From positions 16,601,346 through 16,665,345 of the forward strand of contig CM020618.1 in assembly GCA_009829735.1 (NCBI GenBank): DNA of 64,000 nucleotides. Direction: 5' to 3'. The stretch's first letter is position 1. Each line of letters begins with the position of its first letter. The translations under genes and the position numbers were made by a program. Source of the DNA: Pyropia yezoensis (Eukaryota; Rhodophyta; Bangiophyceae; Bangiales; Bangiaceae). Shown in pieces: positions 13,516 through 64,000 of the stretch. The notes beneath the pieces are model-generated. The model worked only from the letters and a program-made list of their open reading frames with translations, searched no databases and was not told the DNA's origin.

Positions 13516-14280
13516 TCAAGCGCGCGCAGGCTCGCCGTACACGAAGTCGTCGGCCACCACCACGTCCCCGTGGCCGTCGTCGTGGTCCGTCACCTTGCGG
13601 TTGCCCAGCGTCATGCGCACGTACGACACCACCGGCTTGTTGAACACGACACCCAGGAAGCTGAGGCCGCCACGCTTGGCCGGCGCAAACACTTTGGCCA
13701 GCCGCCGCCCGTGAACATCAAAGTACTCGAGGCTGGTCAGGCGCTCGCGGTCCACGTCAAGGAGGACAGCCCCAAAGCCGGTGGTCGTGGCCTTGACGCC
13801 CCGCTTGCCGGGAACCTCGAACCGCACCTTCAACACATTATTCTTGAGGGGTGTAAACAGGCGCGGGGCGGAGAAAGGGAGCAGCTGCAGCGCCAGTTTC
13901 TTGTTCAGCGACGTGAATCGGTTGTCGACAATGTGCTGCACCGGCGGCGGATTCGACACTCGGAATTCCCCGCGCTTGGCATCAAACACCGCCCCACGGG
14001 GCACGACGGTATTGAAGAAGTCGCCAGGCATCTTGAACGGCACGCCGTCTGCATCCCAATTGATGCTGCGGCGGCCGTCGCGGGCAGGCGGGCCCGAGCC
14101 ATTGTCCGGCTCGTTGAGGAGGCGGCCAAACTTCTCAAACGCGGGGCGGATGTCCCCCGCAGCCGATCCACGCGCCCGCACCACTCGCGCCCGCAGGCCC
14201 GACGGGCGGTGCGCTGATACAACCGCGACGGCGGCGGCGGCCATGGCCGTGACGGCCGACAGGCGGGCGAGGAAGCCCAT
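13516..14280 (-). CDS. Secreted protein, bacterial-type SFLGVxFxxPVVxxVRxTxGN family, copy A
   Basis: Single-exon gene of 254 codons. It starts with a signal peptide (MGFLARLSAV, Ala-rich core, VVSA cleavage site). The mature protein has GRRSINWDADGVPFKMPGDF, FFNTVVPRGAVFDAK, RLFTPLKNNVLKVRFEVPG, TTTGFGAVLLDVDRERLTSL, then SFLGVVFNKPVVSYVRMTLG and ends in VVVADDFVYGEP. From memory this order matches a family common in bacterial secreted proteins (INFDGVP, FFNVNSPRGVVFST, FGAVFTDVD, SFLGVSF, VVMDDFIYGEP). That suggests a beta-sandwich, possibly sugar-binding, and acquisition from a bacterium. No catalytic residues are evident. It is divergently arranged with a close paralogue at 15922-16683. 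Alternative upstream starts would destroy the signal peptide. Confidence 0.85.
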   Translation of the reverse strand: MGFLARLSAVTAMAAAAVAVVSAHRPSGLRARVVRARGSAAGDIRPAFEKFGRLLNEPDNGSGPPARDGRRSINWDADGVPFKMPGDFFNTVVPRGAVFDAKRGEFRVSNPPPVQHIVDNRFTSLNKKLALQLLPFSAPRLFTPLKNNVLKVRFEVPGKRGVKATTTGFGAVLLDVDRERLTSLEYFDVHGRRLAKVFAPAKRGGLSFLGVVFNKPVVSYVRMTLGNRKVTDHDDGHGDVVVADDFVYGEPARA

Positions 14281-15921: not shown

Positions 15922-16683
15922 ATGGGCTACCTCACCCGCCTGTCGGTGCTTGCGGCCGTCGCGGCGGCGACGATCGCTACAGTCTCGGCTGATAGCCGTG
16001 AGCTGCCGGCCAAGGCGGTCAAGGACACGGGCGCCCACGCGGGCGACATCCGCCACGCGTTTGAGAAGTTTGGCCGCCTCCTCGGCGAGCAGGACAACGA
16101 GTCTGGCCCCCCCGCCCACCGTGGCCGCCGGAGCATCAACTGGGATGGCGCGGGGGTGCCGTTCAAGATGCCTGGCGACTTCTTCAACACGGTGGTACCC
16201 CATGGGGCGGTCTTCCACGCTAAGGGCGGGGAGTTCCGCGTGTCCAACCCGCCGCGGGAGCAGCACATTGATGACGACCGCTTCTCGTCGATCAACAAGA
16301 AGCTGTCCAAGCAGATCAAGACGTTCTCACCAAAGCGCCTGTTCACCCCTCTCAAGGGCAACGTGATGGAGGTGCGCTTTGAGGTGCCGGGGAAGCGGGG
16401 TGTCAAGGCCACGACCACCGGCTTTGGCGCCGTTTTTGTCGACCTGGACCACGACCACGTGACCAGCCTCGAGTACTTTGACGCCCACCGCCGGCGCCTG
16501 GCCAAGGCGTTTGTCCCATCCAAGAAGGGTGGCCTCAGCTTCTTGGGCGTCGTGTTCAACAAGCCGGTGGTGTCGTACGTGCGCATGACACTGGGCAACC
16601 GCAAGGTGACGGACCACGACGACGGCCACGGGGACGTGGTGGTGGCCGACGACTTCGTGTATGGCGAGCCCCAGCGCTCGTAG
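15922..16683 (+). CDS. Secreted protein, bacterial-type SFLGVxFxxPVVxxVRxTxGN family, copy B
   Basis: Single-exon gene of 253 codons, paralogous along its whole length to the 13516-14280 gene. It has a signal peptide (MGYLTRLSVL, Ala-rich core, TVSA), then HAFEKFGRLLGEQDNESGPP, RRSINWDGAGVPFKMPGDFF, FFNTVVPHGAVFHAKGGEF, TFSPKRLFTPLKGNVMEVRF, TTTGFGAVFVDLDHDHVTSL, GGLSFLGVVFNKPVVSYVRM and DDFVYGEPQ. The C-terminal half is nearly identical to copy A. The linker after the signal peptide and the region around residues 105-125 differ most. This indicates a recent inverted duplication with the C-terminal fold under constraint. Probably exported to the cell wall or medium; function unknown. Confidence 0.85.
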   Translation: MGYLTRLSVLAAVAAATIATVSADSRELPAKAVKDTGAHAGDIRHAFEKFGRLLGEQDNESGPPAHRGRRSINWDGAGVPFKMPGDFFNTVVPHGAVFHAKGGEFRVSNPPREQHIDDDRFSSINKKLSKQIKTFSPKRLFTPLKGNVMEVRFEVPGKRGVKATTTGFGAVFVDLDHDHVTSLEYFDAHRRRLAKAFVPSKKGGLSFLGVVFNKPVVSYVRMTLGNRKVTDHDDGHGDVVVADDFVYGEPQRS

Positions 16684-16999: not shown

Positions 17000-17815
17000 A
17001 GATGTACTCGGCAAGAGTCCCCATGGGGGCACAAGAGCAACTTTTCCAAGACTCTTGAACCGTTCCTTGAACCATTCTGCCGTCGCTCAAGGAATGTGCT
17101 GACATCAATTGTCCTAAACGTTTCTCGGAACGGTTCTCAGCGCAGTTCTCAGAACAGTTCTGAGAATCTGATGGGTACGAGGCGTTCACAAATATTCACA
17201 GATCTGCTCAAGAAAACACGTCCGACAAATCCTTGTGTGTGTGCGTCTCTGAGGCCGATTCTATGGCACAGGCCGTTGCAACGAGATGCAACTTCGGTTG
17301 ACTGCCACATGAGGTTCCAGGCAGCCAGGAACAGAAGTAAGCACACCATCGCAAAGGGCAGCACACAAGGAAACGACACGCCCAAGAGGCACGAAGATTG
17401 CCAAAAATGAAAAATGGTCAAGCGATTCATTAAAAGGACAACATCCGATAAAAAGGCGCTCTCTGACGGTCTTTTGAGAGGGTGTTCCGCGGGCCATTTT
17501 CTCAGAAGTGGTCCTTTTAATGAATCGCTTGCCCATTCTTCATTTTTGGCGATCTTTGTGCCGTCTTGGGTGTGTCGCTTGCTCCTGGGCTGCTCTTTGC
17601 GATGGTGTGCTTATTTCTGTTCCTGGCTGCGTGGAACCTCATATGGCAGTCAACCGAAGTTGCATCCCGTTGCAACGGCCGGTTCATATAGAATCCTCCT
17701 CAGAGACGCATGCCACAAGGATCTGTCGGATGAGATTTTTGTGCAGATCTGTGGCTTCTCGTGAACGCCGTTTTCGATTCTGGGTAACTTCCGAAGGCAC
17801 TCTTGCCAAATGGAT
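17000..17815. repeat. Long inverted repeat (foldback) centred near 17475
   Basis: Sequence from about 17180 to 17439 recurs inverted at about 17511-17770 with high identity. For example, TGCAACTTCGGTTGACTGCC on the left pairs with GGCAGTCAACCGAAGTTGCA on the right, and AGCGATTCATTAAAAGGAC pairs with its exact inverse. The central 70 bases are also partly self-complementary, so there is almost no loop. Weaker similarity continues outwards to about 17000 and 17815 (GGCAAGAGT motif). It resembles a foldback element or the product of an inverted duplication. Confidence 0.7.
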
Positions 17816-18900: not shown

Positions 18901-20435
18901 TTACAGGTCTATTCCATAAAGCTATTCACTTCAGAATTTTTTTTTTTCTGAGCCGCATCTCGTCGTGTATAGCTCGAGCTTGGTGAGCATGATCCGCAGT
19001 GCGCTCCGGCCCTGTGGTTTCAAAAGCAGGACCCACGAACGTATTCTTGCGCCTCAGTGCACGCCCAGCGGGCAATGGGGCGTCCTCTGGCCTCTTCGGT
19101 GCGATCGGGGCGAGCCCTTCGTGTCCGAGTGACAATCGGCATCAAATTCGTGGATACTGATTTTGGCTAAACGGGGGTTACATGATGACTCGTTCCGCAT
19201 CGCGTCAGGAGTTAGACTACTGATTGCACTGTCAGGTTCGCAATCACGCTACGCCAGGCGCGGACGAGACAGCCAGCCATTATCCCTTCATTGCGATCTC
19301 GGGCTGGGCGGTCGGTGTGGCTATCGCCGTTGCCTTCACGACAGCGCGGCAGGAGCCCACCCTGCTTCGTTCGGACAGTGACAACAAGCTGTGAGTTTTT
19401 CCTCGTATGGGAGAGCAACCAGCTGTCGGCAACACGGAGCAACCGCGCGGTCAACCGTACCTGTCTAATGCAAAAGGGAGAGACAACGGCGCCCTCCTCA
19501 CTCTCACCTCCCATCTCACCCCGATGCGGGAGACGTACCAGCTGCTTGACCAGGTCGGCCTTCGTCTTGGTGCACAGCTGCGTGGCCTTCACCGTCGCTT
19601 GAGGCGGGGGTAAACAAAGGAGACACAGCAAGCTCACATTCCCGCAGCAATAGTAGGATGCATATGGGGGGAGTTATCGGCAGTGTGAGGACAATAGGCG
19701 CGGCCGCTGCACGGCGGCCACCACTGGACCCAGACTGTAAAGATTTCCCCCCTAATCCCATGCCTAATACCTAAGGGATAATATCTGGGACCTCTCCATA
19801 CAGATCCTGCCGAACCAACTCCTGGCAACAGTGATCAACTCCTTGTATTGTGGGGCATGACGCGGTGTACCTTCCAGACTCAAGATGAGACAGCTGCTGC
19901 CCCACGGTGTCTGCCGGCCGCACGACAGCAGTGCAGGGTCAGTCGGCGGGCAGGCACGCGCACACTCGCGCACACACGCACGCCCCGACCCCGCGCCCAC
20001 TCCACACAGCACACGCTAAGGGCGACGGTCGCGTACTCTTGGGGGAGCGGCGGAGGGTCCGGGGAAGAAGGATGTCGAGGGTGTGGGGGTGTGCAGGGGG
20101 GGTGAGCTTGACGACGGTGGGCAGGTGGTCAAAGGTAAAGTGGTCTTTGCTTGGGGTCTCGGGTTCGATGGTCGATGGTCTGCCCCCCCCCTCTCTCTGC
20201 CCTCGCCCTCGGTCACTTCGTACATATACCCTCGCGGGTCTCTCAGAAGGCCCTCCGCGTAGTCCCTCAAAGGTCGGGCACCAGGTGCCTCGAAATGGGT
20301 GGGGGCGGTCGCCCCCTTTCTCACAGGACGTGTTCAGAGGGGTTCCATGGCCGTCCGAGGACCCGGCGTCGGCACGGGTGCTTAGCGTGGCCATGGGACC
20401 CTCTGGAACTACGAATGGCGGTCTCGGATTGGTCC

Positions 20436-20513: not shown

Positions 20514-20989
20514 TACGTTCGGTGTCAAGCCGCCTCGGTGTCGGCCGCATGGATACGCCGCCATGCTACGTTGTCGTGTCCGCGCTGGCCTCAACGTAGA
20601 GCCGCCAGCGTCATGGTGCAATGTCATCACCGGGACACGTGGTGTTGAACCTTGGTTGTCTATGATCAAAAGAGGGCGCCGGAACCCGCTCGGCCACGGG
20701 CAAATCTTGACAGCCGTGCTTGTCGGCTGAGATTTAATCCACCGGTCCATGGGTAATTCTGAGCGATTCAGGAGGAGTTACGCTGTAAGAACTTAGTCCT
20801 TATAAGCGGCCATCGACAGCCCGTCATGGCCTGTCGAAAGGCGCCACCGTCAGCACCCATGACGAGCCACATCTGCCACAGCAGGCAAGTCCATTAAAGT
20901 GTCCTCGCTGCAACATTCCAGCGATGTGACTGGCTAGCCGGCTGGCCGGCTCGGTCGACTCGATGGAACCGTGCTCACACGCCTCTCGG

Positions 20990-21450
20990 ACCTTCGGACT
21001 GACTGGCGTCTGGGGCCGGCTGGGGCGGCGCACTAGGCGCCGCATGCCGGACCCCTTCGTTTGGGGCAAACTGGGGCTGCACTCCTTTAGTGCGCACACC
21101 TGCCCATGCTTTGTTTTGAGAGCCATGCTTTGTTTCTGGGCCGTTTTGTGCCTTCTGGCGGCGCGACGGGGAAACGCATGCTTTGGGGCACCTCGGGTGC
21201 CCCGACGCGAATATATACGGCGTGGGTGTCGGCGCCACCGGGGGAGACCGGACGGGCAACCACAGACACAGACCAAAGACGACCTTAACCCTTTGAACCC
21301 CCCTCGATCACCACCGACGTCGCGCCGTCCTCTTCCCCAGATCCACCACCGTCACCACCTCCGCCCTCTTCCCCGCACCCTGTCGCCCAATTGGCTGGCA
21401 CGGGTCGCTGACACCATCACGAGTACGTTGAGGGCTGCTCAAGTGTGGGT
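20990..21450 (+). repeat. Interspersed promoter-bearing repeat, copy 1
   Basis: Shares about 450 bases, in opposite orientation, with 62805-63260. Conserved landmarks are GGGCTGCACTCCTTTAGTGC, two ATGCTTTGTT motifs, GGGGCACCTCGGGTGCCCCG (itself a palindrome), a TATA-like AATATATACGGCG and a CCTC/CCCC-rich 3' part. It could be a long terminal repeat or another dispersed repeat with its own promoter. No coding partner is visible, so the class is left open. Confidence 0.6.
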
Positions 21451-22140
21451 GGTTTCTCACACAAATGTCACGAACGGCCAAAAATGGGATGAGCAGCCGC
21501 ACAGAGATTGCCCTGAGATTCATTACATACTCCTGGTGATGTAAAACCGCAAGCGGCGAGCAAGAAGACGCGGATGGCAGTGTGGGGGGTGGGTGTGGGT
21601 GGGAGCGATGGTGGAGGTGGAGGTGGGGATGACGGTGGTGCGACGGCCAACGACGGCAACGACGACGACATCCCCACCGCACGACGAATCGACCACGGCG
21701 TGTCACTAATTACGTGTTCGCGTGACGGCCAAACCCCCACATCGAATTATGATGAACAAATCCTTTCCTTGGTCGTAAAGGACGAACCATCGTTTCGTCG
21801 ATCCCTTCACGACGACAGGTGTCTAGGTGTGGAATATAATTACGCTTATCCCGGTCCGGCACAGATGTTGTCCTCTCTACCGCTTGGCCGGCCTCGCCAG
21901 CCAGCCACGGCGCTGGTAACCCCCAGTTTCTTCTTCAAACACCTCGGTCTCCATCATCTCACTCGCAGCGGGGGGCGGGAACTGAGGTCGGGGCGTGGTC
22001 ACTCGAGGCTTTCTCACGGCAGCAGCAGACGACGGGGTCGCTGGCTGCTTCTGCCCGCACTTAAACTTATTACCACAGAAGCCTCGTTGTTTTACGCAAT
22101 CACGTTTGGACTTTGATCGGTATGTACGAGATTAACGTAT

Positions 22141-36875: not shown

Positions 36876-37631
36876 TTACTTGCGGACGCCCACCAGCTCA
36901 GCCTCTTGCTGCACGCGGCCGTTGGCAGCCGCCGCGCCCAATGGCGCCTCCCACGAGGGGAGGCCCAGCTGCTCCAGCGGCATCTCGTCGATACGGTCGA
37001 GGTAGATGTCCGCCCCCGCGGTCGCGTACGCCGGCCGCCCCACTGCCTCGTTGGGCAGCGCCACCGCCACCATCCCCGCCGCCTTCGCCGACACCACCCC
37101 CGCTGGTGCATCCTCCACCGCCACACACCCTGCGGCGGGAACGCCCAGCCGGCGAGCGGCCTCGAGGAAGAGGTCGGGGGCGGGCTTCCCCGCCGCCACC
37201 ATGTCCGCGTGGACAACTGCGCCAAAGAGGGCAAAGAAGGGGACGTGTCGCGACGACTTGGCCGCCAGGAGGTCCCCAGGGGAGGACGTGGCCACCGCAA
37301 TGGGCACGCCCGCCGCGTGGAGGTGCCGCACCAGCCGGTCGACGCCCGGCAGCAGCTCCACGGACGGCATGATGGCCAGGAGCGCCGCCTCACGCTCCGC
37401 CAGGTACTCGTCTACTGTCAGTTGGGTGATTCCCAACCGCTCCAACGTCAGCACCGCACAGTCGCGGGCGGTACGGCCGAGGAGGTCGGGAAGCAGCGGC
37501 CGGATGTCCTTGCCAAAGCGGTCGCAGATGCCCGACTCGACGGCCAGATAGAGAGGTTCGCTGTCAATAAGCGTGCCGTCCATGTCAAAGATCACTGCCG
37601 GCGGCCGGGGGGGGGAAGGGCTGGGCGACAT
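36876..37631 (-). CDS. HAD-superfamily phosphatase, GS1/HDHD1-like (pseudouridine-5'-phosphatase type)
   Basis: 251 codons, starting MSPSPSPPRPPAVIFDMDGT just before motif I (DMDGT near residue 15). Other HAD motifs are VATSS (II), GKPAPDLFLEAARRLGV (III, catalytic Lys) and CVAVEDAPAGVVSAKAAGM (IV, paired acids). ICDRFGK, IPFALATSS-like IAVATSSPGD and SSRHVPFFALFGAVVHAD closely follow the HDHD1/GS1 pattern. That family removes phosphate from pseudouridine 5'-phosphate in human and from glycerol-3-phosphate or FMN-type substrates in plants and fungi. The C-terminal 30 residues extend beyond the usual length. The frame is open further upstream, but that extension lacks an organised domain. Probably cytosolic; exact substrate unknown. 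Confidence 0.88.
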   Translation of the reverse strand: MSPSPSPPRPPAVIFDMDGTLIDSEPLYLAVESGICDRFGKDIRPLLPDLLGRTARDCAVLTLERLGITQLTVDEYLAEREAALLAIMPSVELLPGVDRLVRHLHAAGVPIAVATSSPGDLLAAKSSRHVPFFALFGAVVHADMVAAGKPAPDLFLEAARRLGVPAAGCVAVEDAPAGVVSAKAAGMVAVALPNEAVGRPAYATAGADIYLDRIDEMPLEQLGLPSWEAPLGAAAANGRVQQEAELVGVRK

Positions 37632-38120
37632 GGCGCCACAGCGTCGAATATGTAGGTAGGCAAGAGTGCGTGCGGGCGACTGCAAGCTGGGTGCGGTGGG
37701 GCGAAGGTGGGAGCGAGGTCGGCCGAGAAGCGGCGGCTCGACCACATGCAATTCTCGAGGCACTTGCCAAGAATTCCGAGCTTCGTCGAAACTCCCTCTG
37801 GTTCCGTTTCGGATGCAGGCGAAGCGTAGTCCGCAGGGCTGTTGGCGAAACCTACGGCACGCCCAGCGTCGCATGGCGTACAGTCATTATTCGACTATAT
37901 GAAGGGGGGCTAGGGGTTAAATCGGAATGTCATTTACAGCGGATTCGCAACGAGTGCGTGGACTGACAAACACCGCCGGGCGTCGCAGCAGTGTCGACCG
38001 ATCAAGTTACACGCTCGCAAGAAATCCGCGTCATCGGGTGAGGCGAGCAGGGCGCACCAGTCAGGCGCACAAGTTGCTTCCTACGCACGACCAGTCACAA
38101 CCACAATAGCACGAAGGCAT
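37632..38120. other. Intergenic region upstream of the phosphatase gene
   Basis: Contains the phosphatase leader. An ACTATATGAA sequence at 37895-37905 could act as a TATA element in the minus direction. No gene recognised. Confidence 0.35.
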
Positions 38121-39024: not shown

Positions 39025-40800
39025 CTAGTGGAGCCAAATAGAAGCCTCCCCGTCTCCTCCCCCCAGCAGACGCTCCACCGCGGCGCCCAGCCGGGTAACC
39101 TCCCCCAGGTAAGCGACGAGGACCTCATTTGCCGCTGCCAAAGCCGCAGCCTCGGCCTCGGCGGCCGCCACCGCCGCCCGCTGCTTTTGCCGACACTTTT
39201 CCACCGACGCCCGGTTCTTGACCCGCCGCGCCGCCCGGTCGCCGCCATGGTCGTTGCCGCTGCCGCCGCCGAGAGCGGCGGCAGCGGCAGCGGCGGCGAC
39301 AGAGGCAGCGACGCCGCCATCCCCGGCGGCGGGGGGCGCGGTACTGGGCTGCTGCCCAATGGGGAGGCCCTCGAGCGACGGGTAGCCTGCTAACGTCGCC
39401 GCTGCCGGCTGCCACGCAGCCGACGGACCCACGGTCGCCGCAGGTGACCGGCGACGCTGCCGACGGAGAGGGGGACCTCCCAATGCTCCCCATCCGCCCA
39501 CGGCAGCAGAGCCGCCCCCGGCTCCCCGCTCGCCTCCGCCACCTACGTACCCGCCACCACTGCCACCGCCGCCACCGCTGTCCGCCAGGGTCCCCCACAG
39601 CGCTGACACAGACAGGTCCGGATAGGCCGCGGCTGCCGGTGCCGCCGCCGCCCCTCCCTTCTCGCCGGCCGCCCTCGCCAGTCGGGCAGAGGCAATAGCG
39701 GAGCGCTTGCGCTTGCGTTCCCGCCGGCAAGCGCGGACCAGCTCTGCCCGCGCCGCGGCGCAGTGACCGTCGTCGACCACAACTGCCGTGGTCGCCACCG
39801 CCGTCGCCTCTGCCGCCGCAGCAGCCGCAGACTTGCACAGCCAAGCCCCGACCGATGCCGACGCCGACGCCGCCGATGCTGATGCTGACGCTGATGCCGG
39901 CGCCAAGGCCGACGCTGGCACCGCGTCAGCAGCAGCAGAGGGCACAGCGGGGGAGGGCGGGCACTTCCAGCAGCTGGGCGGGGAGGCCGCCCATACGTCG
40001 ACCCCCCGCGGGGAGACAATGAGCAGTGGCAGCCGTGATGATGATGCCCCCTTGACGGGCCCAACGCGCGCGTGACCCGTCGGGTGCGCGGCGGTGACTG
40101 CAGCAGCGGCGGCGTCCGCCGCATCTGCCGGCGAAGGAAGAGGTGCGAGGTTCAAGCTGCTAGACTGCCGCGGTGGCGGCGGCGAGAGTGATGCCTCATC
40201 GGCACTCCACATGCACCCTGCACCAGCGAGGAGAGGGCGCCGCGACAACGACGCTGCTACCGTTGTTGGCGCTGTTGCCGCCGTGATGATTGCGCCGGAG
40301 GGGGCAGTGGCGGTGTGAGTGGTGGTCGTCGTAGTGGTCGCGGTGGTACTGGAAGGGAAGGTCCCCCCGCTACCGCCCAAGCGCCCGTCTCTGCCAACCA
40401 GTCGAAAGGGAACAGGGCGGGCAGGAGCGCAGGAAGCGGCTGCATCCCCTTTGATGTCATAGTGGGGAGATGTTGGATGCCAGTGGCAGCCGACGTGGCC
40501 GCCGCCCGCGTGGCCGCCGCCAAGGCCGCCGTCGTGGCCTCCACGGTGCTCATCGTGTTGGGAGAGGCCGTCGGCGGGCGCACCCACTGCACCTCCCCCC
40601 CGAGAGCCATAGCGGCCCAGCAGGATCCTGTCGCCGTCTACGTCGCTGCTGCCAAACCGGACAAAGCAGCCGTTGGCGCCCCCACAGCCGCCGCCGCCGC
40701 CGCCGCTCTGTGCCGGCACGTCTGGCTCAGACAGCAAGTAACCGGCGTCGTCCTCGCCACGAAGGAGGTCGTCCGTCAGCAGGTCCGCCGTGGATGCCAT
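39025..40800 (-). CDS. bZIP transcription factor
   Basis: 591 codons, single exon, starting MASTADLLTDDLLRGEDDAG, an acidic N-terminus that could activate transcription. Most of the protein is Ala/Gly/Ser/Pro-rich and probably disordered. The C-terminus is a bZIP domain. The basic region at about residues 523-542 (RRVKNRASVEKCRQKQR) keeps the invariant Asn and the Arg nine residues later. It is followed by a zipper (about 543-580) with heptad Leu, Leu, Val, Val. The Ser-Val-Glu-Lys-Cys-Arg core recalls the CRE/AP-1-like class. The zipper begins unusually Ala-rich, so dimers may be weak or need a partner. The domain ends 11 residues before the stop. Nuclear regulator; targets unknown. TTACGTAA at 31175 would be one kind of site such proteins bind. 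Confidence 0.9.
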   Translation of the reverse strand: MASTADLLTDDLLRGEDDAGYLLSEPDVPAQSGGGGGGCGGANGCFVRFGSSDVDGDRILLGRYGSRGGGAVGAPADGLSQHDEHRGGHDGGLGGGHAGGGHVGCHWHPTSPHYDIKGDAAASCAPARPVPFRLVGRDGRLGGSGGTFPSSTTATTTTTTTHTATAPSGAIITAATAPTTVAASLSRRPLLAGAGCMWSADEASLSPPPPRQSSSLNLAPLPSPADAADAAAAAVTAAHPTGHARVGPVKGASSSRLPLLIVSPRGVDVWAASPPSCWKCPPSPAVPSAAADAVPASALAPASASASASAASASASVGAWLCKSAAAAAAEATAVATTAVVVDDGHCAAARAELVRACRRERKRKRSAIASARLARAAGEKGGAAAAPAAAAYPDLSVSALWGTLADSGGGGGSGGGYVGGGGERGAGGGSAAVGGWGALGGPPLRRQRRRSPAATVGPSAAWQPAAATLAGYPSLEGLPIGQQPSTAPPAAGDGGVAASVAAAAAAAALGGGSGNDHGGDRAARRVKNRASVEKCRQKQRAAVAAAEAEAAALAAANEVLVAYLGEVTRLGAAVERLLGGGDGEASIWLH

Positions 40801-51840: not shown

Positions 51841-54140
51841 GTGTCGCATGTGCAACGTGCTCGCGCGTATGCCCGCCCCCCGGGGTGGTCCCCCCCGGTG
51901 GGGGCGGCCGCCACCACCGCCGCCACAAGGACCGCGGGGAGAGTGTTAAGTAGACCCACAGACGCCACCCCGGGTGATTTGTGTGCCTTTTGGGTACCGG
52001 AACCCATTGGCTCGGTGTGCAGCACCCCCGTGGACGCCGTGTTTATTGGCCGCTGCGAGGACAAGGAGGGGCAACCCGGCGGGGGGGTTGGTGGCCCACC
52101 GCCCGCGGGGGCAGGCCAGTGGTGGGTGGACAAGACGCCTGGCCCGGGGCTGGACGAGGGGGACGATGACGCCGGCACGGCGCGCCACGGTGGCGCATCC
52201 AGTCCCCCCCGGCTGTGGTGGTTTGCGGTGCGTCGTTCAGACGTGCGGCGGATGCTCCATCGCCGGACGGCGAATGTGGTCGTCACCCTGTCTCATAGTG
52301 TCCTGTCGGACAGCCGCGAGTTTGGCGGCCTCGGCCACTGGGACCTTCTTCCGCCAGTCATGCAGAGGGCGCTCGCCATCCACGCAACGCCTCCGCACGG
52401 GGGACAGCAGGTGGTACCTGTACCGGCACCGGGGCCTCCCCCCCTGCAGAGTGCTCCTCCACGCTACGCCCACCTGGACGAGTTCCAGTGGCGCGCAGTC
52501 GATTGCATGCGCCGGGGGCTGTTGTCGGACGAGTTTGACGTGCAGCTGGTGACGGGCCCCCCGGGACGGGCAAGACACGCGCCATTGTCTCCATGGTGGA
52601 CATGGTACTTGGGACCCTGCCAGACGGGCGGGTGCTGCTGACGTCGCGCACCAACACGGCGTGCGACGAGCTGTTGGACGCAGTGCACGAGTTGTTCTGT
52701 CCGTCGGGGGCTGCCAGTCGACACGGCGTCGCGAAACCCGATGCCGTGACGCTCCTCCGTGTGGGTGAACCCCCTCCGGATGGCCACCGTGCCAAGACAA
52801 CGCACATTGACGCCGTGGTGGACGAGCGCCTTTCCTGTCGCCTACCCGTCCGTGACAGCCGCGGTGGAACGGGCAAGGGCACGGGTGGCCGATGTGGGCC
52901 GCCGTGTGGATCGTTCCCGCGCCCAGGGTGCAGAGCCGGGCGCGGGTGGGTCACAAAACCTCCTCGAGGAATGTGCCGATGCGGAGCAAGCCCTGGAGGC
53001 TGCCTTGCGTCGCCAGCAGCGTGCGGAACGGGAGCTCCGCAAGCGCATCGTGGGCGGCGCGTCCGTCATTGTCACAACCACGTCAACGTCGACGGGGGCG
53101 CTCGTGGGGGGTCAGGCTTTGACGCCATTATCATTGACGAGGGTGCGGCAACAAGCGTCCCTGCGTCTGTCGCCGCCATTGTTCGCGCCAAGCGGGCGGG
53201 GCGTGCGGGTGGCTCGTCAGATGAAGAAGAGGACGGTCATCCGGCAGAGCGGACCAAGTGCATTGTCCTTGTTGGCGACAATGCCCAGCTGAGGCCGAGC
53301 GCCGGCATGGAGTACAGGGGCGAGACACGGCCGATGGCATCCAGCGTTTTTGAGCGGCTCGCCAGGTTTCTGTCCGCTTGCGTCATCCTCTCCGTGCAGT
53401 ACCGCATGCGGCCGCTGTTATGGTCCCTCCTCCGAGAAGTCTTTTACCGGCACATTGGCATATGGTCGGACGGGCGCGGGCCCAAGGCCCGCCATGAGGA
53501 GGGGTTTGGAACACCCGCGTGGCTAAACCATCCGGGACAGCCTATTCGCTTTGGAGGGCTGCAAGTGACAGACACCTCCCGCCTGCCGGCCGACGATCGG
53601 GCGCACAAGACGGGTTCCACCACCCCCACAACAAGAGCCTGATTAACGTTGCAGAGCTTCGGTTGGTCGAGATGGCTCTTACGGATCTACTGCGGGCGTG
53701 GGCGACGTCCAGCGGGGCTACCGAGCTCAAGGTGATGCTCATCACCCCGTACACTGCGCAGCGGAACAAGCTGAATGAGGTGGTGCAGTCGATGAGAGAC
53801 AGCAGGCGGCTGCCCCGCAGACCATGTGCCGACGTCAGGGTGTCCACCGTGGATGGCTGCCAAGGCGCTTCTGTGGACTGTGTCATACTCTCCCTCGTGC
53901 GGTCAGAGCCTGGGGCGCCACCCGGCGGGAGCACCGACTTTTTTGTCCGACGAGCGGCGCGTGAACGTCATGATGTCGCGGGCACAGAGCCATCTCCACG
54001 TGATTGGTGACATGGACTACCTTTCAAGCTCTGGGGGTGTGTGGAAAAGCTGGTGGGACAACGTCCGCCGTAGGTGGAGCCGTCCAGATCGACGGGACCG
54101 CGAGCACATCAACATTGTGGCTCCCGACAGGGTGTACTAG
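51841..54140 (+). pseudogene. Upf1-like superfamily 1 helicase, frame-disrupted
   Basis: All SF1 motifs of the Upf1/SETX/IGHMBP2 group occur in order. Walker A GPPG(T)GKTRAIVSMV is near 52555, a coiled insert with ECADAEQALEAALRRQQRAE near 52980, and motif II IIIDEGAA near 53130. Motif III VLVGDNAQLRPS is near 53275, motif IV QYRMRPL near 53400, VSTVDGCQG near 53840, and DERRVNVMMSRAQSHLHVIG near 53960-54010. The order and spacing are typical. The region before Walker A (DLCAFWVPEPIGSVC, RMLHRRTANVVVTLSHSVL) matches the pre-helicase domain. Frame changes lie at about 52561, 53106, 53610 and 53939-53944, three of them in C, G or T runs of six. An intact gene with sequencing errors is therefore possible. 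Likely RNA/DNA helicase; could be host or part of a mobile element. Confidence 0.7.
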
Positions 54141-56530: not shown

Positions 56531-56561
<31 letters not shown>

Positions 56562-57041
56562 CGCTCGCTCGCCATGGTTCGGCGAGCCGCACGGAAGCTG
56601 GCGTGTCAGTCGGCTCAAATGCCGCAGTGCATGCGGTGCACTCCGTCCCGCACCCACCGTCGTGCTACTGGCGGCTGCCATGAGCACAGCGTCTGTGCGC
56701 GGTCTGCAATTGGGCCGCCAACCCCATCACCACCACCGCCGCCGCCACACCACCACCGCCAGCCCCACCACCGCCACCGCGAGCCCCTCCACCACCACCG
56801 CCGCCGCGCCACAGGACACTCTCACGGCAGCCACCGTCGGCCACGGGTGCCTCGGCGATGAGACGGATCTTTAATTTCCGGGGCGGTGAGCTAAGGCCAC
56901 GCGACAGCCCACAGGGGCACGTGGCGGTGCGAGCATCCTCCGCTCTGCCCCCTGACTGCGAGGTAGCGTCGGTTTGGGGGTGGCGGGGGGCGGGCGGCGT
57001 GGGGGAGAGGAGGGGGGCGGGGGGGGGGGCGGGGGGGGGGG

Positions 57042-57076
<35 letters not shown>

Positions 57077-57348: not shown

Positions 57349-60300
57349 ATGAACGATGATGACGACGGCAGCGACCAAGACATTGGCGGCGACGTGCTGG
57401 ACGGCGACACCACCTCAGACGAGGAGCGGGACCCGACACAAGAGCAGGCGTACGTTCAAGACGCACGCAACGTGGTGACGCTCAAGCGGGCGGTGCTCGC
57501 CGCCAACCTGAGCCGCCTGCAGGGCGTGTCTGCACCCCACGGGGGCGACGCGGCCTCGTCGGCCGACTGGTCTGCCGCCGTCGCGCAGTTGCAGCAGGCG
57601 GCCAAGGATGAGGAGGCGGCGGGCCCCCTCGACGGCGCCGGCGAGGACCTCCTCGCGGCCATCACAGGCGAAGCACAGGCGGTCAGCGTGTACTGGGATG
57701 GTCGGGCGGCGCCAAGCGAGGCCGAGGTGGAGCTCGCCGCACGCGCCAAGACGGCCGCTGGGCTGATTGGCGTGGCCGCCGCGGGCTTGCCCCAGCGCGA
57801 GGCTGCCACTGACGCACCGCCCGCCCGCAAGGGGCGGACGCAAAAGTGTAGCGGATGTGGCGAGCCCGGGCACAAGGTCACCTCTTGCAAGGCCCCGGCT
57901 GGTGCAGGGCCGGCAGCCGCTGCCGCCGCCGCTGCCGCTGCCGCCGCCGTCCCGGCGGCGGCGGCGGCGGCCGCGCCCAAGTGTCGCGACTGCCTGGGAG
58001 GGGGCCACAGTAGCGGAGACGCCGCCTGCCCGGTGCAGCGGCACTGTGGGGGCGTGCCAGCGGCCTACGACCGCGGCGTCGACCCCGACTGCAAGGACCC
58101 GCTTCAGAGCACTGGACGGCAGACGCGGGCGTGTACCGTGCCGGTGGGCGTCCTGGCAAGGGCGGTGTTTGGGGACGACACGGACGACGCCCACACGCGC
58201 GCGGCGGTGGAGACGGCGCTGCAAGCAGAGCTGGAGGACCTCTCTGGGGCGGCTACCAAGCTCCGCTTCCTCATGCTCCGCGTCCTCGACGTGGCATTGC
58301 GGCGCCTGGTGTCGACCGTCGCGGACGCAGCCGCCGACGACGCCGACTGGACGGGGGCCGTGCCCGCAAACTGGGCGCCCGTCTGGCTGTGGTTGGCCTA
58401 CGCCTGCGGCTGCGAGGGTGTGTCTGGCAGTCCCCTGCAGGCGGGCACCGTGTGTGCGGGCTGTGGCAAGGGGCGGACCAACACGCGGATGGCGCGCGCC
58501 CGCTCTGTGGTGACAACGAGCCACCCGCTGCTGGCAGAGGCGCTCTCCTACGCCCTGACGCAGGTGATGGCCGTCACGGCAGCTGCGTGCGACCGGTATC
58601 TTCCGGCGAGCAACAGCACGGCACGATGGGAGCCCGTCGCCACCATCGTGGCCACCCACGCCGGGCGGTGTGTGGACGCGGCGTGTCGCAAGCTGGGCGC
58701 CTAGGCGGCCAAGGACGCGCTGGCCACCTCCCCCGCTGCCACGGCTGCTCCAGCGGGCGGCTCTGCCTGGGACACGGAGCGGCGGCTGACGCGGTGGGCG
58801 GCCGCGCGCTTCCGCGCGGGTACCGCGGACAAGGCAACGCCGGGCCGGCGGGGCCTCGACGGCGTCCCCCAGCACCTGGTCCAGGCGCTGGCGCAACGGG
58901 TGGCCGTCATGCGGGCGGCCATGCCACCCTCTGTGGCGGGCCTCTTTCCAGCAACGCCTGTGAAGAAGCGCCGCTGGTGGGCGTACGTTCCGTTTCTTCT
59001 CCACGTCCTGAATGTGGGTGTGGGGAGCCCGTACGCCCTCATCCCTGGCGCCCGAGCGGTGCTCCACGGTCACGGCACGCTGGTGCCGGACAAGATGCTC
59101 GCCCTGTCGCGGGCAGCTTCGGCCGCCACTGGCGTAGGGGTGCGTGGCCACCCCAGTCTTCGGCCATGGCCAGAGCTGCGAACGGGCGGTGCAGCGGTGC
59201 TGGCCGCCATGGCTGGTGTCGGTCGCCGCGCCAACCGGGCCGCATCCCAGCTGTCTACCGACGGCGTGGCGGTAACGTTTTTTCTGTCTCGACCCGACAC
59301 GGCCGCAGAGGCCGAGGCGCGGGCGGTGGCCTGGGCCAAGAATCTGGACGGAGGTGGACGTGCGCGGGACCGCGGCGGCAAAGGCTTTGCGTCCCGGGCG
59401 GGGGTACTGACGCTGCCGTACTGTCGGCAGCACCGGGTGAGCGCGTGGCGACGGCAGACCTCCCCGCCCGCCCCGTTGTAGCCGCGATGCGCGCCGCGTG
59501 GTCCCGCCACATGGGCTTGGACGCGCTCAACCGGGCGGCCGTGGCGCTCCTGCGTGGGGCGGGCGTCCAAGACGGGGTGGCGGCAGCCGCAACCTTGCCC
59601 GAGGGCCACCCACCGGGGGGGTCTAGGAAGCGGGCGGCGGCGGGCGCCCCGGCTGCAGGGGCGGGGACAGGGGGGGGCCGCTCCAAGAGACAAGCGCGGC
59701 GGTCGTCACCCGACGGGAGCGACGATGATGCGGCGGCGGTGGCCCCGGCGGCGGCGGGTGCGACGACGCCCCCCGAGGCAAAGACCTACCAGACGGCGAG
59801 CCCCGGCGGTGGCCACGGGCGCGTGCGGCGTGGGCCGCAGGCGTCCATCCGACGGGCCCGCCGCACCCAGCTCGCCACCTCGGTGCGGCGTGTGCTGCGT
59901 CGCACGCGCCTGTCCCGGTGGACTGTGCCCCGTCACGAGGCGGAAAATGTGGCACGGTGGCTGGTGGACCCCACTGCCGCGGCGGGCAACAGTGCCAGCG
60001 GCACCACCCCAGACGCGCCGCTGCTGGACCAGGTGGACGCGCTGCCCCGGCGCAAGGGGTGTCGTCGACTGGCACCCGTCCCCGGCCTTCGCTACAGCCT
60101 GAGTGCCGCCCACTTTCGCGAGGCCAGCGGCGGTAACTTTTTGGCCCGTGCGTGGAAGCAGTGGCGGGCACGCAGCGGTACTGAGGCGGGACCGTTGGCG
60201 GTGGCGGTGGCGGGACTGGTGGCGGCGGCGGTGGGTGACGGAGGCGGCGTCGCTGGCCACCTACCACCCGTCGACCTGGCAGCAGCACACGGCACGATGC

Positions 60301-61472
60301 GTACCGGCGACGACGGCAAGCACCTGCAGGCAACGCTCGAGTGGGCCGCCCGTCGCGACACGGCCGCGTACGGCCAGCGATTTGACGCGCAAGCCACGCG
60401 ACACCTGCGGACGGCGCGTGTGCGCAAGGCCATCCAACGCGGCCGCTTTGCTGCCTCGGTGGCGCGGGACCTGACCGGCGGCCTCCTTCGCCAGGTCCGT
60501 GGCGGCGGCGCGGTCATCGTGGCCATGGGCACCGCGCGCGTGCGCGGGGGGGACGCCTGGCTCCGCCGCCACCTCCGACGGCTGTGCTGGTTTGTCGACC
60601 AGGACGAGTTCAACACCAGCCAGGCGTGCTCCGAGTGTCACGACAAGATGGTGCTCATCAACTCGACGGGCAACTCCCCCCCCAAGATTCCAAGAGAGCT
60701 GTATGGGCCGCCGGCCGGCCCTCTGCCGTCAACACGGCGTGTGCGGATGGCGGCTGGCTCGCGTCGGGGGCGGCCAAAGAGGGCCCTCCCCTCTGCTACC
60801 CACGTGACGCGCCGAGGGCCAGACCCCGACGCCTACCGGGCGGCCGTCCGAGCCACTGCCCGTGCTGCTGCTGTGGCGCGGCGCGCGGCCGCGCTGGCCG
60901 CCTGTGCCGTCGAGGACCGCGCCGTCTATGCCGACCCAAGACGGCTGAGCGAGTGGGCGGCCAAGGGCTGCTACACGTGCTCTCTCGCGGCCCCACAAGG
61001 CCACGGTCATCCAGCGCCACACCCGCCCGTCATTCGCAATCGGGACGACGTTGCGGCCCGCAATATGGCGTGCGTGGCCGCTCGTCGTCTAACGGGTACG
61101 GACGTGTGGCCTTTCAAGCGCCCGTTTGGTATGAGGTGGGCCTGGACCGCCAAGCGTCCTCCAAGTGGTGTTCCCGTCCCGCCTGTACGTCGCACCCGTG
61201 CGACTACGCGGGTCGATGTATGGCCCGTACTGGCTGCAGTGGACACTGTCGGCGACGGTGGGGGTGAGGGTGGCGGTGGCGGTGGCGGTGGCGGTGGCGG
61301 TGGTAGGGGGGTTGTCGACGGCGACGCGACGGCGGCGTCCTGTACGACACGACGCGGTGCTCCTGGTGGGGAACAGGTGGCGGCGGCCGGCAGTGCCATG
61401 GACGGGGTACGTCGGGCGGAGACCGGGGCGACAGACGCGCCCCGTGGTCTGGTGGACACTGCAGCACGCTAA
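57349..61472 (+). pseudogene. Fanzor/TnpB-like RNA-guided nuclease homologue
   Basis: Starts MNDDDDGSDQDIGGDVLDGD. Zinc knuckle CSGCGEPGHKVTSC at residues 167-180 is followed by a second, CRDCLGGGHSSGDAAC, after an Ala run. The middle has KKRRWWAYVPFLLHVLNVG and LSTDGVAVTFFLSRPD (near 59260), both typical of Fanzors. The nuclease half contains LVDPTAAAGN (near 59967, candidate RuvC-I Asp, weak), LRYSLSAAHFREASGG and AVIVAMGTARVRGG. FVDQDEFNTSQACSECHDKM (near 60600) carries the relocated Glu seen in Fanzors plus one half of the zinc ribbon. GCYTCSL precedes NRDDVAARN (near 61040), the RuvC-III motif. One TAG (58702-58704) and one frame change in a G5 run (59400-59404) interrupt it; the last may be a base-calling error. 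Fanzors are nuclear RNA-guided DNA nucleases that ride on transposons. No transposase or clear ends were found here. Confidence 0.8.
61265..61306 (+). repeat. GGTGGC hexamer microsatellite
   Basis: A run of GGTGGC units (about seven) within the 3' part of the Fanzor-like frame, after the RuvC-III motif. The natural C-terminus probably lies before it, near WPFKRPFG (61110-61135). Confidence 0.6.
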
Positions 61473-62804
61473 GACAGCGCACATCTTGCCCGTGACCCTC
61501 ACCTACCACGGGGTGCGTCAGCCGCCCCCTTTTTCGCCGACGAGCCAATGATGGGTAATTGTCGGCCGTTCACTAGTAGGTTAGACGCCGGCTTTTCCCG
61601 GGGACCTTTCCCAGGATGAGTCGGATGTTTTCCGGAGGGGTTTAACCGATAGTTACAGCATCGATAAGACATGAGGGAGCGAGAAAAACAAGGTGGTTGT
61701 CACACAGCACTTGTAGCGCAGCACGAGGGCTGTTACTTCCTGTCTTTGTCTTGGAGTGGAAGGATGATCTTGTTTATCTCTAATATTAAATTATTGAGCG
61801 TGTTCCAGAGATCGTACAGGGTAGATTCAGCTTTTGCATGCGAACTTCGATCCACAGCGCAGCGCGCATGGCCGCCATCGCAGGATGTAGCGTAGGCGCT
61901 GGGCCGCCGATGAGGCACTCGGCTTGCTGTCCAGACAAATTCTCGAGGAGCTTTTCTGAACGTCTGGTGATTGGCTCGTCTGAAAAAGGGGTCACGGCAG
62001 AGTGGGTGCTCCTTTTATCGTGTGACGTTTTCTTGCTTCTCTGTTGAGACAGAGAATAACACATGGCTTGTTGTTCTTCTCCGCCAGATTCGACAGAAAA
62101 TCGGCTACGGGGGCTACGAAAGAGTACAATGACACGAAAAAAACAATGGTGGACTGAGAAATGTTGTTGTGAAGCGCTGTCGTGCCTGCAGACGCGTCTC
62201 GGCGCTTCATCCATCGTCGACTGGCGCTCTTGCACGGCGGTTGTACCGCGAACTGTACGCTACCACCCCCTTCCCCCCCTAATCCCTCTGCCCCCGCAAG
62301 CTGCGCCCTCAAAGAGGGCTCTGAAGAGGAAGAGGGGAGTGAAGAGGGGGGGGACGACGACAGTGAGGCGGGCGCCGGGAGTGGCCTCATTGACATGGAC
62401 ACGTGACGTCCGTGCCCTGGAGTCCACTGCCGTTGCCTGTCTCGTCTGCGTTTTCAGGGTACAGTGTTTCGCGGATACTTTTTGCTGCCGCCAGTTGGTT
62501 GTTGCGATCCCACACGAGGGAGGTTCACAGGTGGTCGTTACTCGTTAAACGATGAAGAGTGGGCCGCTGCCGCGTTGTGGCGAAGGCGACGATGAGGAGC
62601 ACAAGGGCGGCCCAGCCCGTGATCCCAACGACGGGAGTATGACCGGCTGTCTCGTCGACACCATGCGCGGCGGGATTATGGAATTGGTACGGTAGTCACT
62701 GCTCCAACTCCTGATTGGATGTGGAATCGGTCATCATGTAACCCCCGTTCGGCCAAAAGCGAATGACGGCCAATATGATGTTAATCCCCATTCGTGTGAG
62801 GACC
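61473..62804. other. Region without a supported gene
   Basis: AT-richer sequence downstream of the Fanzor-like gene. A frame ending in an acidic tail (KEGSEEEEGSEEGGDDDSEA, about 62310-62370) may be the end of a lost gene. A stretch near 62700-62760 is related, inverted, to 19160-19230. Confidence 0.4.
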
Positions 62805-63260
62805 CACCCACAACCGGGGAGCCCTCAACGTACTCGTGGGGTGTCAGCGGGCCCTGCCAGCCAATAGGGCGGAAGGGTACGGGGGAGAGGACGGTGGTCT
62901 TGACGGGGGTGGGTCTGGGGAGGAACATGGTCGCGACGTCGGTGGGGATCGAGGGTACAAAGGGTGAACGATGTCTTTCGTCTGTGGCTGTGGTTGCCCC
63001 CCTGCTCTCCCCCGGTGGCGCCGACACCCACGCATTATATACTCGCGTCGGAGCACCCGAGGTGCCCCGAAGCATGCGTTTCCCCGTCGCGCCGCCGGTA
63101 GGCACAGAACAACCCAAAAACAAAGCACGGCTATCAGAACAAAGCATGGGCGGGCGTGCGCACTAAAGGAGTGCAGCCCCAGTTCGCCCGAAACGAAGGG
63201 GATTCCGTGGATGGCGCCCAGTGCGCCCCACCAGCCGGCTCCAAACGCCGGTCGGCCGGG
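62805..63260 (-). repeat. Interspersed promoter-bearing repeat, copy 2
   Basis: Inverse of 20990-21450 with good overall similarity. The TATA-like segment here reads TATATACTCGCG on the plus strand. The matching GAGGGCTCCCC and GTGAGGACCCAC end-proximal segments are also shared. Possibly a terminal repeat or another dispersed element. Confidence 0.6.
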
Positions 63261-64000
63261 AGGTTCGACCGGCTGCAAGGTCCAGCAGGACCTTTTTCAC
63301 TCAATCCCTTGGCCGGCCAGTCAGTCACCAGCCAGCTGGCCGAATTCAGTCAATCCAAAAGCCGGCGAGCCAGTCATATCACACGCAGCCGCCAGCGAGG
63401 ATATGTGGTGTCCTCGGTGTCGGTTGATCATGTAGCTCGTCCTTGATGCTAGCTGTCGACCAGCGCAGAGAGTAATGTTCTGGCAGCACAGACGGGGATG
63501 TCCGCCCGTTGTTGGTCGACGATGTCACTCGTTCCTCGTTGTCGAGTTTTGAAATCCATGACCAGGTTCCGACAGTGAGTTGACGACGGTTTTCGTGAGG
63601 CCAGCCGACGTTCGCAAATTGTTAGCGGTACAGCGCGGTGTCGCCCAGGGTAGTGGGGAGTTGATGTGTCTTGAGAGGAGTTAGCGGGGCATGACATGTG
63701 AGAAGAGGTCCCAGTCCATATCCCCTGGGTTCCAGGCGTGGATTTAATGGGCAAATCCTTACAATTCGGACCCGACCGCGCGTTCGGATCGCACCGGAGG
63801 GCCCAGAGGACCCCGCGTTGCGCTTCGGACGTGCACACAGGCGCAAGACCATGGTCTTGGGTCCTCGTTTTTTTATCCCTGGCCCGGAGCGTGGTGGGGA
63901 TCATTCTGACCAAGTGAGAGCTGTAGCCCAGGAAAGGCGGCCAAGAGAGAAATCAGTTTCCAAGTGACTTTCTATATGGAATGGACCTTTAGTCTCTCCC
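63261..64000. other. Region without a supported gene
   Basis: No gene recognised. Repeated CCAGTC/GCCGGC motifs occur near 63300-63370. Confidence 0.4.

Follow-up and report, generated by a model that had tools for sequence, protein, structure and literature searches.

Within a 64-kb stretch of Pyropia yezoensis DNA (contig CM020618.1; the whole stretch is referred to as the window), the plus-strand locus 57349-61472 raises the question whether two reading frames, ascribed in a preliminary description to a Fanzor-type nuclease, indeed derive from such a gene. From the motifs preserved in both frames, the locus is very probably a Fanzor1 gene copy that has diverged and is interrupted. Hence, the proposed Fanzor-type identity stands, more exactly as Fanzor1, and so does the relocated glutamate, whereas the suggested extension of the host range does not. 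A working Fanzor1 of this kind would be a eukaryotic TnpB relative carried by a DNA transposon and would bind a structured RNA guide that originates by transcription of the element's 3' end. This RNA would pair with target DNA beside a short adjacent motif, and cleavage would proceed via a RuvC site of D, E and D. For the locus itself, RuvC fold, nuclease activity, guide RNA and mobility are predicted from its likeness to this family.

Fanzor1-type motifs in two reading frames

All motifs named in the preliminary description, from zinc knuckle and TDG motif in frame A to DEFNTSQACSEC and NRDDVAARN in the second frame, are present (Table 1). Assignable are the glutamate, the second aspartate, the TDG motif and both zinc-finger halves, with the first aspartate being less certain, and large insertions separate these motifs from each other. 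The glutamate of DEFNTSQACSEC precedes the first zinc cysteine by exactly six residues (E414 and C421 of the open reading frame (ORF) ending at 61472). An alternative glutamate ("Ealt") six residues ahead of the zinc finger is described as a mark of Fanzors (PMC10711439), in line with the proposal of a relocated catalytic residue. Between RuvC-II and RuvC-III, a C4 zinc finger CSEC ... CYTC is present with a gap of 110 residues, and zinc-finger insertions are mentioned for some Fanzor1s (PMC10711439). The TDG motif is considered a hallmark of the WED domain in Fanzor1s (PMC10711439); all six frames of the window together contain a single [ST]TDGxxV, as compared with an average of 0.1 over 40 null windows. 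Shortly downstream of NRDDVAARN, a KRPFGM motif is found (R at 61119).

Table 1. Coordinates of the features at the locus, given as window positions.
Feature	Position	Strand	Basis or remark
N-terminal half, frame A, 451 aa	57349..58701	+	open frame, frame-A codon-position GC bias; ATG at 57349
CCHC zinc knuckle CSGCGEPGHKVTSC	57847..57888	+	exact CX2CX4HX4C
Second, looser knuckle-like CX2CX4HX6C	57982..58029	+	pattern match
In-frame TAG of frame A, or final bases of an intron ending CCTAG	58702..58704	+	
Frame A continued up to next TAG (59479-59481)	58705..59481	+	open frame, codon-position GC
LSTDGVAVTFF, TDG motif typical of the Fanzor1 WED domain	59251..59283	+	frame A; WED location presumed
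Shift of coding frame from A to second frame	59286..59480	+	codon-position GC; frame A stop at 59479
C-terminal half, second frame, stop 61470-61472	59484..61472	+	frame open from 58014
VDPT, favoured RuvC-I motif (D at 59967-59969); alternative D at 60027	59964..59975	+	likeness to SpuFz1 IDPN, PpFz1 MDPG, GtFz1 CDPG
RYSLSAAHFREASG, like SpuFz1 RYTANQRAVETGSR downstream of RuvC-I	60090..60131	+	by-eye comparison only
DEFNTSQACSEC, putative relocated RuvC-II Glu (60606-60608) and first zinc-finger CxxC (CSEC)	60603..60638	+	PF07282 match; second frame
CYTC, zinc finger second half	60969..60980	+	after 110-residue insertion
NRDDVAARN, putative RuvC-III Asp at 61044-61046	61038..61064	+	second frame
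3' hairpin, candidate guide-RNA scaffold or element-end hairpin	61415..61538	+	34-nt arms, fold z-scores

For comparison, the letters of three solved Fanzor1 proteins were read from PDB alignments (SpuFz1, 8gkh; GtFz1, 9cer; PpFz1, 9cf0). SpuFz1 from Spizellomyces punctatus bears, in this order, TTDGASVSV (a piece that itself scored -0.5 bits in the PDB alignment), IDPNKRD, DEYKTSSVCPRC and WNRDMLSTCN. The corresponding series are MDPGRRD, DEFRTSSFCPKC and WNRDQAAVLN in PpFz1 from Parasitella parasitica, and CDPGKRD, PEHYTSQECPSC and WNRNVAGAFN in GtFz1 from Guillardia theta. Like all three proteins, the locus encodes a glutamate six residues ahead of the first zinc cysteine and, if VDPT is the right choice, a DP(x) motif at RuvC-I. 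With SpuFz1 it further shares a TDG motif upstream of RuvC-I, with PpFz1 a large insertion and with both the NRD triplet, which is NRN in GtFz1. Unguided MAFFT alignment placed DE, TS, C and C in register with SpuFz1 and PpFz1. In contrast to the solved proteins, however, the locus shows N-terminal zinc knuckles, 110 residues within the zinc finger, DPT at RuvC-I and an interrupted frame. Moreover, the distance from TDG to VDPT amounts to about 237 residues if unspliced, versus about 55 in SpuFz1. The predicted protein would comprise about 1,100-1,370 residues, depending on introns and the actual end, whereas most Fanzor1s have 600-700 (PMC11423790); some are reported to reach about 800 (PMC10711439).

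Related motifs were also obtained from viral contigs, where one motif search gave no match and another gave 16 loci, four of them with TnpB-like frames of 371-405 aa (one cut off) and 12 with frames of 32-35 aa. In three of these viral TnpBs with a glutamate before the zinc finger (L002, L005 and L013), EYYTSKxCPxCG, YxCxCG and HRD align in register with the locus, and E, T, S, C, C, YxC and RD were brought into register by MAFFT without guidance. These viral proteins are compact (398-405 aa from stop to stop), without the large insertions seen here.

The motif chain was also evaluated statistically, using 100 null windows (Markov-1, about 63 kb each) and the ORF protein shuffled 100,000 times. 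The combined signature D-x(125-275)-E[FYH]xT[ST]xxCxxC...CxxC...RD matched one segment of the window, but neither any null window nor any shuffle. Likewise, the signature of Bao and Jurka, D-x(125,275)-[TS][TS]-x-x-C4 ZnF-x(5,50)-RD, is matched in the ORF ending at 61472 when the zinc finger may enclose up to 160 residues and the spacing ahead of RD may be 3-50. In this widened form, it gave one match over all null windows and one among the shuffles, while the loosest motif, E..[TS][TS]..C..C, gave 10 and two, respectively. The zinc-finger gap (5-160) and the spacing of 3-50 before RD had been widened after the sequence was seen, with the nulls subjected to the same widened patterns.

The weak point of the motif chain is RuvC-I. 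In SpuFz1, the catalytic residues are D383, E541 and D606 (PMC11423790). At the locus, five aspartates are found at a fitting distance before the glutamate (D 59967, 60012, 60027, 60036 and 60237), and only D 59967 is followed by proline. With this residue, the D-to-E gap would be 212 residues, which is between 157 in SpuFz1 (from D383 and E541) and a hand-counted 269 in PpFz1. VDPT is favoured as the putative RuvC-I motif, albeit without proof.

Interruptions, zinc knuckles and 3' hairpin

In the given sequence, the gene is not intact, as frame A is closed by the TAG at 58702 and the coding frame changes near 59,300-59,440, both being real in the letters available. GC by codon position (240-nt windows) is indicative of coding in frame A up to about 59,300 and, between roughly 59,420 and 61,000, in the second frame, corresponding to a switch at roughly 59,300-59,440. 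This is near 59400, a position that the preliminary description had singled out, together with 58702, for resequencing. Beyond about 61,000 the codon-position bias goes back to frame A; hence, the real C-terminus past NRDDVAARN may differ from the stop of the ORF. The two frame breaks may reflect introns, decay or sequence error, with decay of a transposon copy being our leading guess. It is conceivable, though rather doubtful, that the Fanzor1 gene is intact and spliced, with TAG and frame change inside introns. A 141-nt pair (GTGATG 58564 ... CCTAG 58704) would take out the TAG and keep the frame, and a 356-nt pair (GTGAGC 59437 ... CCTACCAG 59792) would connect frame A and the second frame. 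However, the same frame and length conditions are satisfied by 57 GT-AG combinations for the TAG and 65 for the frame join, so that such pairs are expected by chance. Furthermore, the codon bias of the second frame begins near 59,420, within the second putative intron (59437-59792).

The N-terminal half (57349..58701) consists of an acidic start, followed by the zinc knuckles and a presumed REC region, and did not match any Pfam family at E<=1. When the N-terminal ORF was shuffled 100,000 times, the exact knuckle spacing CX2CX4HX4C arose in 27 cases. In the window it recurs at one further site, near 2640 in a minus-strand frame that is Cys-rich and of low complexity. PF00098 scores 13.5 bits on the knuckle, under its cut-off of 20.8. 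This knuckle-bearing N-terminus is the sole unusual part of the Fanzor1 copy. In the available parts of PMC3627910 and PMC10711439, N-terminal zinc knuckles are not mentioned for Fanzors ("zinc knuckle" and "gag" do not occur in the former, "N-terminal" does not occur in the latter), which is not proof of novelty.

At the opposite end of the locus, the 3' flank holds an unusually stable hairpin. Its arms of 34 nt (61415-61448 with 61505-61538) are 79% complementary, and a 150-nt window at this place folds with z-scores of -6.3 (plus strand) and -5.0 (minus strand; 60 shuffles each). In a plus-strand fold scan of the whole window, the hairpin reached a z-score of -4.1, rank 12 of 844 (40 shuffles), and for the segment 61400-61640 (z -3.75) none of 200 shuffles was equally stable. 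Since Fanzor and TnpB derive their guide RNAs from the element's right end (PMC10711439), the hairpin is in the right place for a guide RNA. It fits the guess of a 3' guide RNA made in the preliminary description without proving it, and a DNA hairpin near the element end is equally compatible. Scanning the whole window, no match at the Rfam gathering cut-off and no tRNA was found. Terminal inverted repeats did not exceed the null expectation (top score of 15 for ACC-type repeats, best other 13 nt, versus maxima of up to 16 in 30 null pairs), and a second copy of the Fanzor region (tblastn, E 1e-3) or of the hairpin was absent from the 64-kb window. A Helitron-like 3' end, with CTAG followed by T downstream of the hairpin, was dropped, as four letters are expected by chance. 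Taken together as a working system, i.e., a spliced gene of a Fanzor1 lineage with about 1,100-1,370 residues, a CCHC domain fused N-terminally as extra nucleic-acid grip and a guide RNA from the hairpin at 61415-61538, these features would make a novel but unlikely picture.

Profile searches and competing explanations

With the 701-aa C-terminal frame as query, PF07282 (TnpB/Fanzor zinc domain, TNB) was the sole Pfam family at E<=1 (E 0.014, 15.9 bits). The segment 59934-61140 gave 17.7 bits for this family besides DUF637 at 0.048, and the 219-aa end piece 60444-61100 matched PF07282 as the only family at E<=10 (E 9.3e-4, 19.8 bits). A profile built from the three Fanzor1 sequences ranked the ORF first among 467 ORFs of the window (E 0.09) and gave 8.0 bits on the ORF core, compared with a maximum of 5.3 among the 773 of 2,000 shuffles that were scored. 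When combining the three Fanzor1s with the TnpB-like L79 and the three viral TnpBs, the ORF was again first of 467 (9.2 bits, E 0.022; next ORF at 1.9 bits), and the core reached 11.0 bits, more than all 2,000 shuffles (530 scored, maximum 3.6). As the Fanzor1-only profile left the true TnpB ISDra2 unrecognised (-1.8 bits), these small profiles are blunt tools. Overall, the profile matches are specific, albeit weak.

Several results weigh against the assignment to Fanzor1. The best PF07282 score, 19.8 bits, stays below the gathering score of 26.3 and its match spans 19 residues only. Neither small profile reaches the inclusion threshold in the window, the Fanzor1-only profile separates the ORF only slimly from the next one (7.0 versus 6.1 bits), and the best aligned stretch of the seven-sequence profile is confined to the EF.TS..C..C region. 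BLASTP against a 57-residue piece of PpFz1 missed the motif. Searching PDB with phmmer, the window protein gave 38 matches at E<=1, most of them antibody linkers and the best one at 0.0065, and a second search gave a single match, a dioxygenase at 0.33; Fanzor or TnpB structures were absent from both. NCBIfam likewise yielded no Fanzor or TnpB, only SAMP2 at 0.1 in the N-terminal half, and no relative was found at the protein level in viral contigs, genome contigs or plasmids; PHROGs did not give any match. AlphaFold predictions were unusable, both for 59934-61140 as single sequence (mean predicted local distance difference test score 38.0, predicted TM-score 0.25) and for 59943-61140 aligned with three of the four viral TnpBs, the cut-off L004 being omitted (38.0 and 0.23, respectively). 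Concerning RuvC-I, MAFFT aligned the Fanzor1 aspartate of SpuFz1 and PpFz1 with D 60027 instead of VDPT, and with the viral TnpBs neither of these two residues was in register with the TnpB aspartate. A DPG motif is lacking in the ORF, with VDPT being nearest, and the regular expression of PMC10711439 did not match due to the missing DPG, a zinc-finger gap of 110 instead of 12-18 and a CxxC-to-D gap of 21 instead of 4-8. DPG is, however, not absolute for Fanzors, as the proven Fanzor1 SpuFz1 has DPN.

These shortcomings could be explained by an unrelated zinc-ribbon protein, or a pseudo-reading frame in GC-rich DNA, resembling the Fanzor signature by chance. Profile scores lie under the cut-offs and owe most of their strength to a single short motif, GC-rich DNA yields long open frames on either strand, and RuvC-I cannot be placed with certainty. 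Nevertheless, chance likeness appears improbable, because several features stand in the correct order, the combined signature was absent from null windows and shuffles, the frames bearing the motifs are backed by codon-position bias and the sole Pfam match at E<=1 is just the expected family. That the locus might represent a relative of TnpB or of Fanzor2 (IS607-type) instead of Fanzor1 is suggested by the higher score of the core with the TnpB-including profile (11.0 versus 8.0 bits) and by YxC and RD aligning with the viral TnpBs. This assignment is very improbable, however, in view of the Fanzor1 traits, namely the TDG of the WED region, the large size, insertions in RuvC and zinc finger and the NRD context, and a serine recombinase was not detected among 29 different ORFs of the window, with shorter frames outside this Pfam scan.

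Surrounding window and bearing on the Fanzor family

With 27 of its 32 2-kb blocks at a GC content of 0.59-0.74 and the other five at 0.50-0.59, the window is rich in GC. It contains 500 N between 47498 and 47999, and its other genes look eukaryotic according to Pfam and solved-structure matches. Among them is a minus-strand ORF at 36879-37883 encoding a HAD phosphatase, residues 89-312 of which match HDHD1A and pseudouridine-5'-phosphatase (E about 1e-37), which suggests that the window is nuclear eukaryotic DNA. GC content, eukaryotic genes and long open frames would suit a bangiophyte host, without being specific to one. Weak SET and bZIP matches were seen in Pfam searches as well. Positions 52539-53639 encode part of a UPF1/NAM7-like helicase (AAA_11 and AAA_12; best solved match UPF1), some 3.7 kb ahead of the Fanzor start. 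In between, there are a run of 30 G (56532-56561) and a G-rich stretch of 99 bases (56976-57074, 75% match to poly-G), at which errors of sequencing and assembly are likely. Directly 3' of the Fanzor region, interspersed repeats at 62470-62758 and 62789-63268 are 70% and 84% identical to distant copies at 19161-19447 and 20986-21467, located on the opposite strand about 42 kb away, suggesting mobile elements in the window. A near-palindrome of 589 bases (17181-17769) is 82% identical to its own reverse complement and includes the strongest fold of the 844 scanned (150-nt window at 17401, z -9.9). In addition, a 632-base inverted repeat pair (13529-14160 and 16039-16670, 82.6% identical) overlaps long ORFs without Pfam match at the limits used, and a very stable plus-strand fold at 39226-39375 (-112 kcal/mol, z -6.5) shares its DNA with the minus-strand frame that weakly matches bZIP.

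The preliminary description had valued the copy for extending the host range of Fanzors to red algae. Even for a red-algal host this argument falls, because rhodophytes were already listed among the Fanzor hosts by Bao and Jurka in 2013 (PMC3627910), with about 150 copies of CMe-1A in Cyanidioschyzon merolae. The available parts of PMC10432273 and PMC12451028 hold no further red-algal Fanzor. By description, CMe-1A resembles the locus in being a Fanzor1 for which terminal inverted repeats were not found and, given a red-algal host, in its phylum. It forms, however, a family of about 3-kb elements, some with intact proteins, as opposed to the one interrupted copy encountered here (PMC3627910).

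With Fanzor1 already published in red algae, one interrupted copy is a modest addition. Fanzors are nonetheless eukaryotic RNA-guided nucleases of interest for genome editing, and a strongly diverged representative, here from a GC-rich host, helps to recognise which residues are truly constant, namely the glutamate, the last aspartate, TDG and the zinc cysteines, as well as how much enlargement the Fanzor scaffold tolerates. The zinc-knuckle extension could represent a new domain addition to the family if paralogues in the host share the knuckles.

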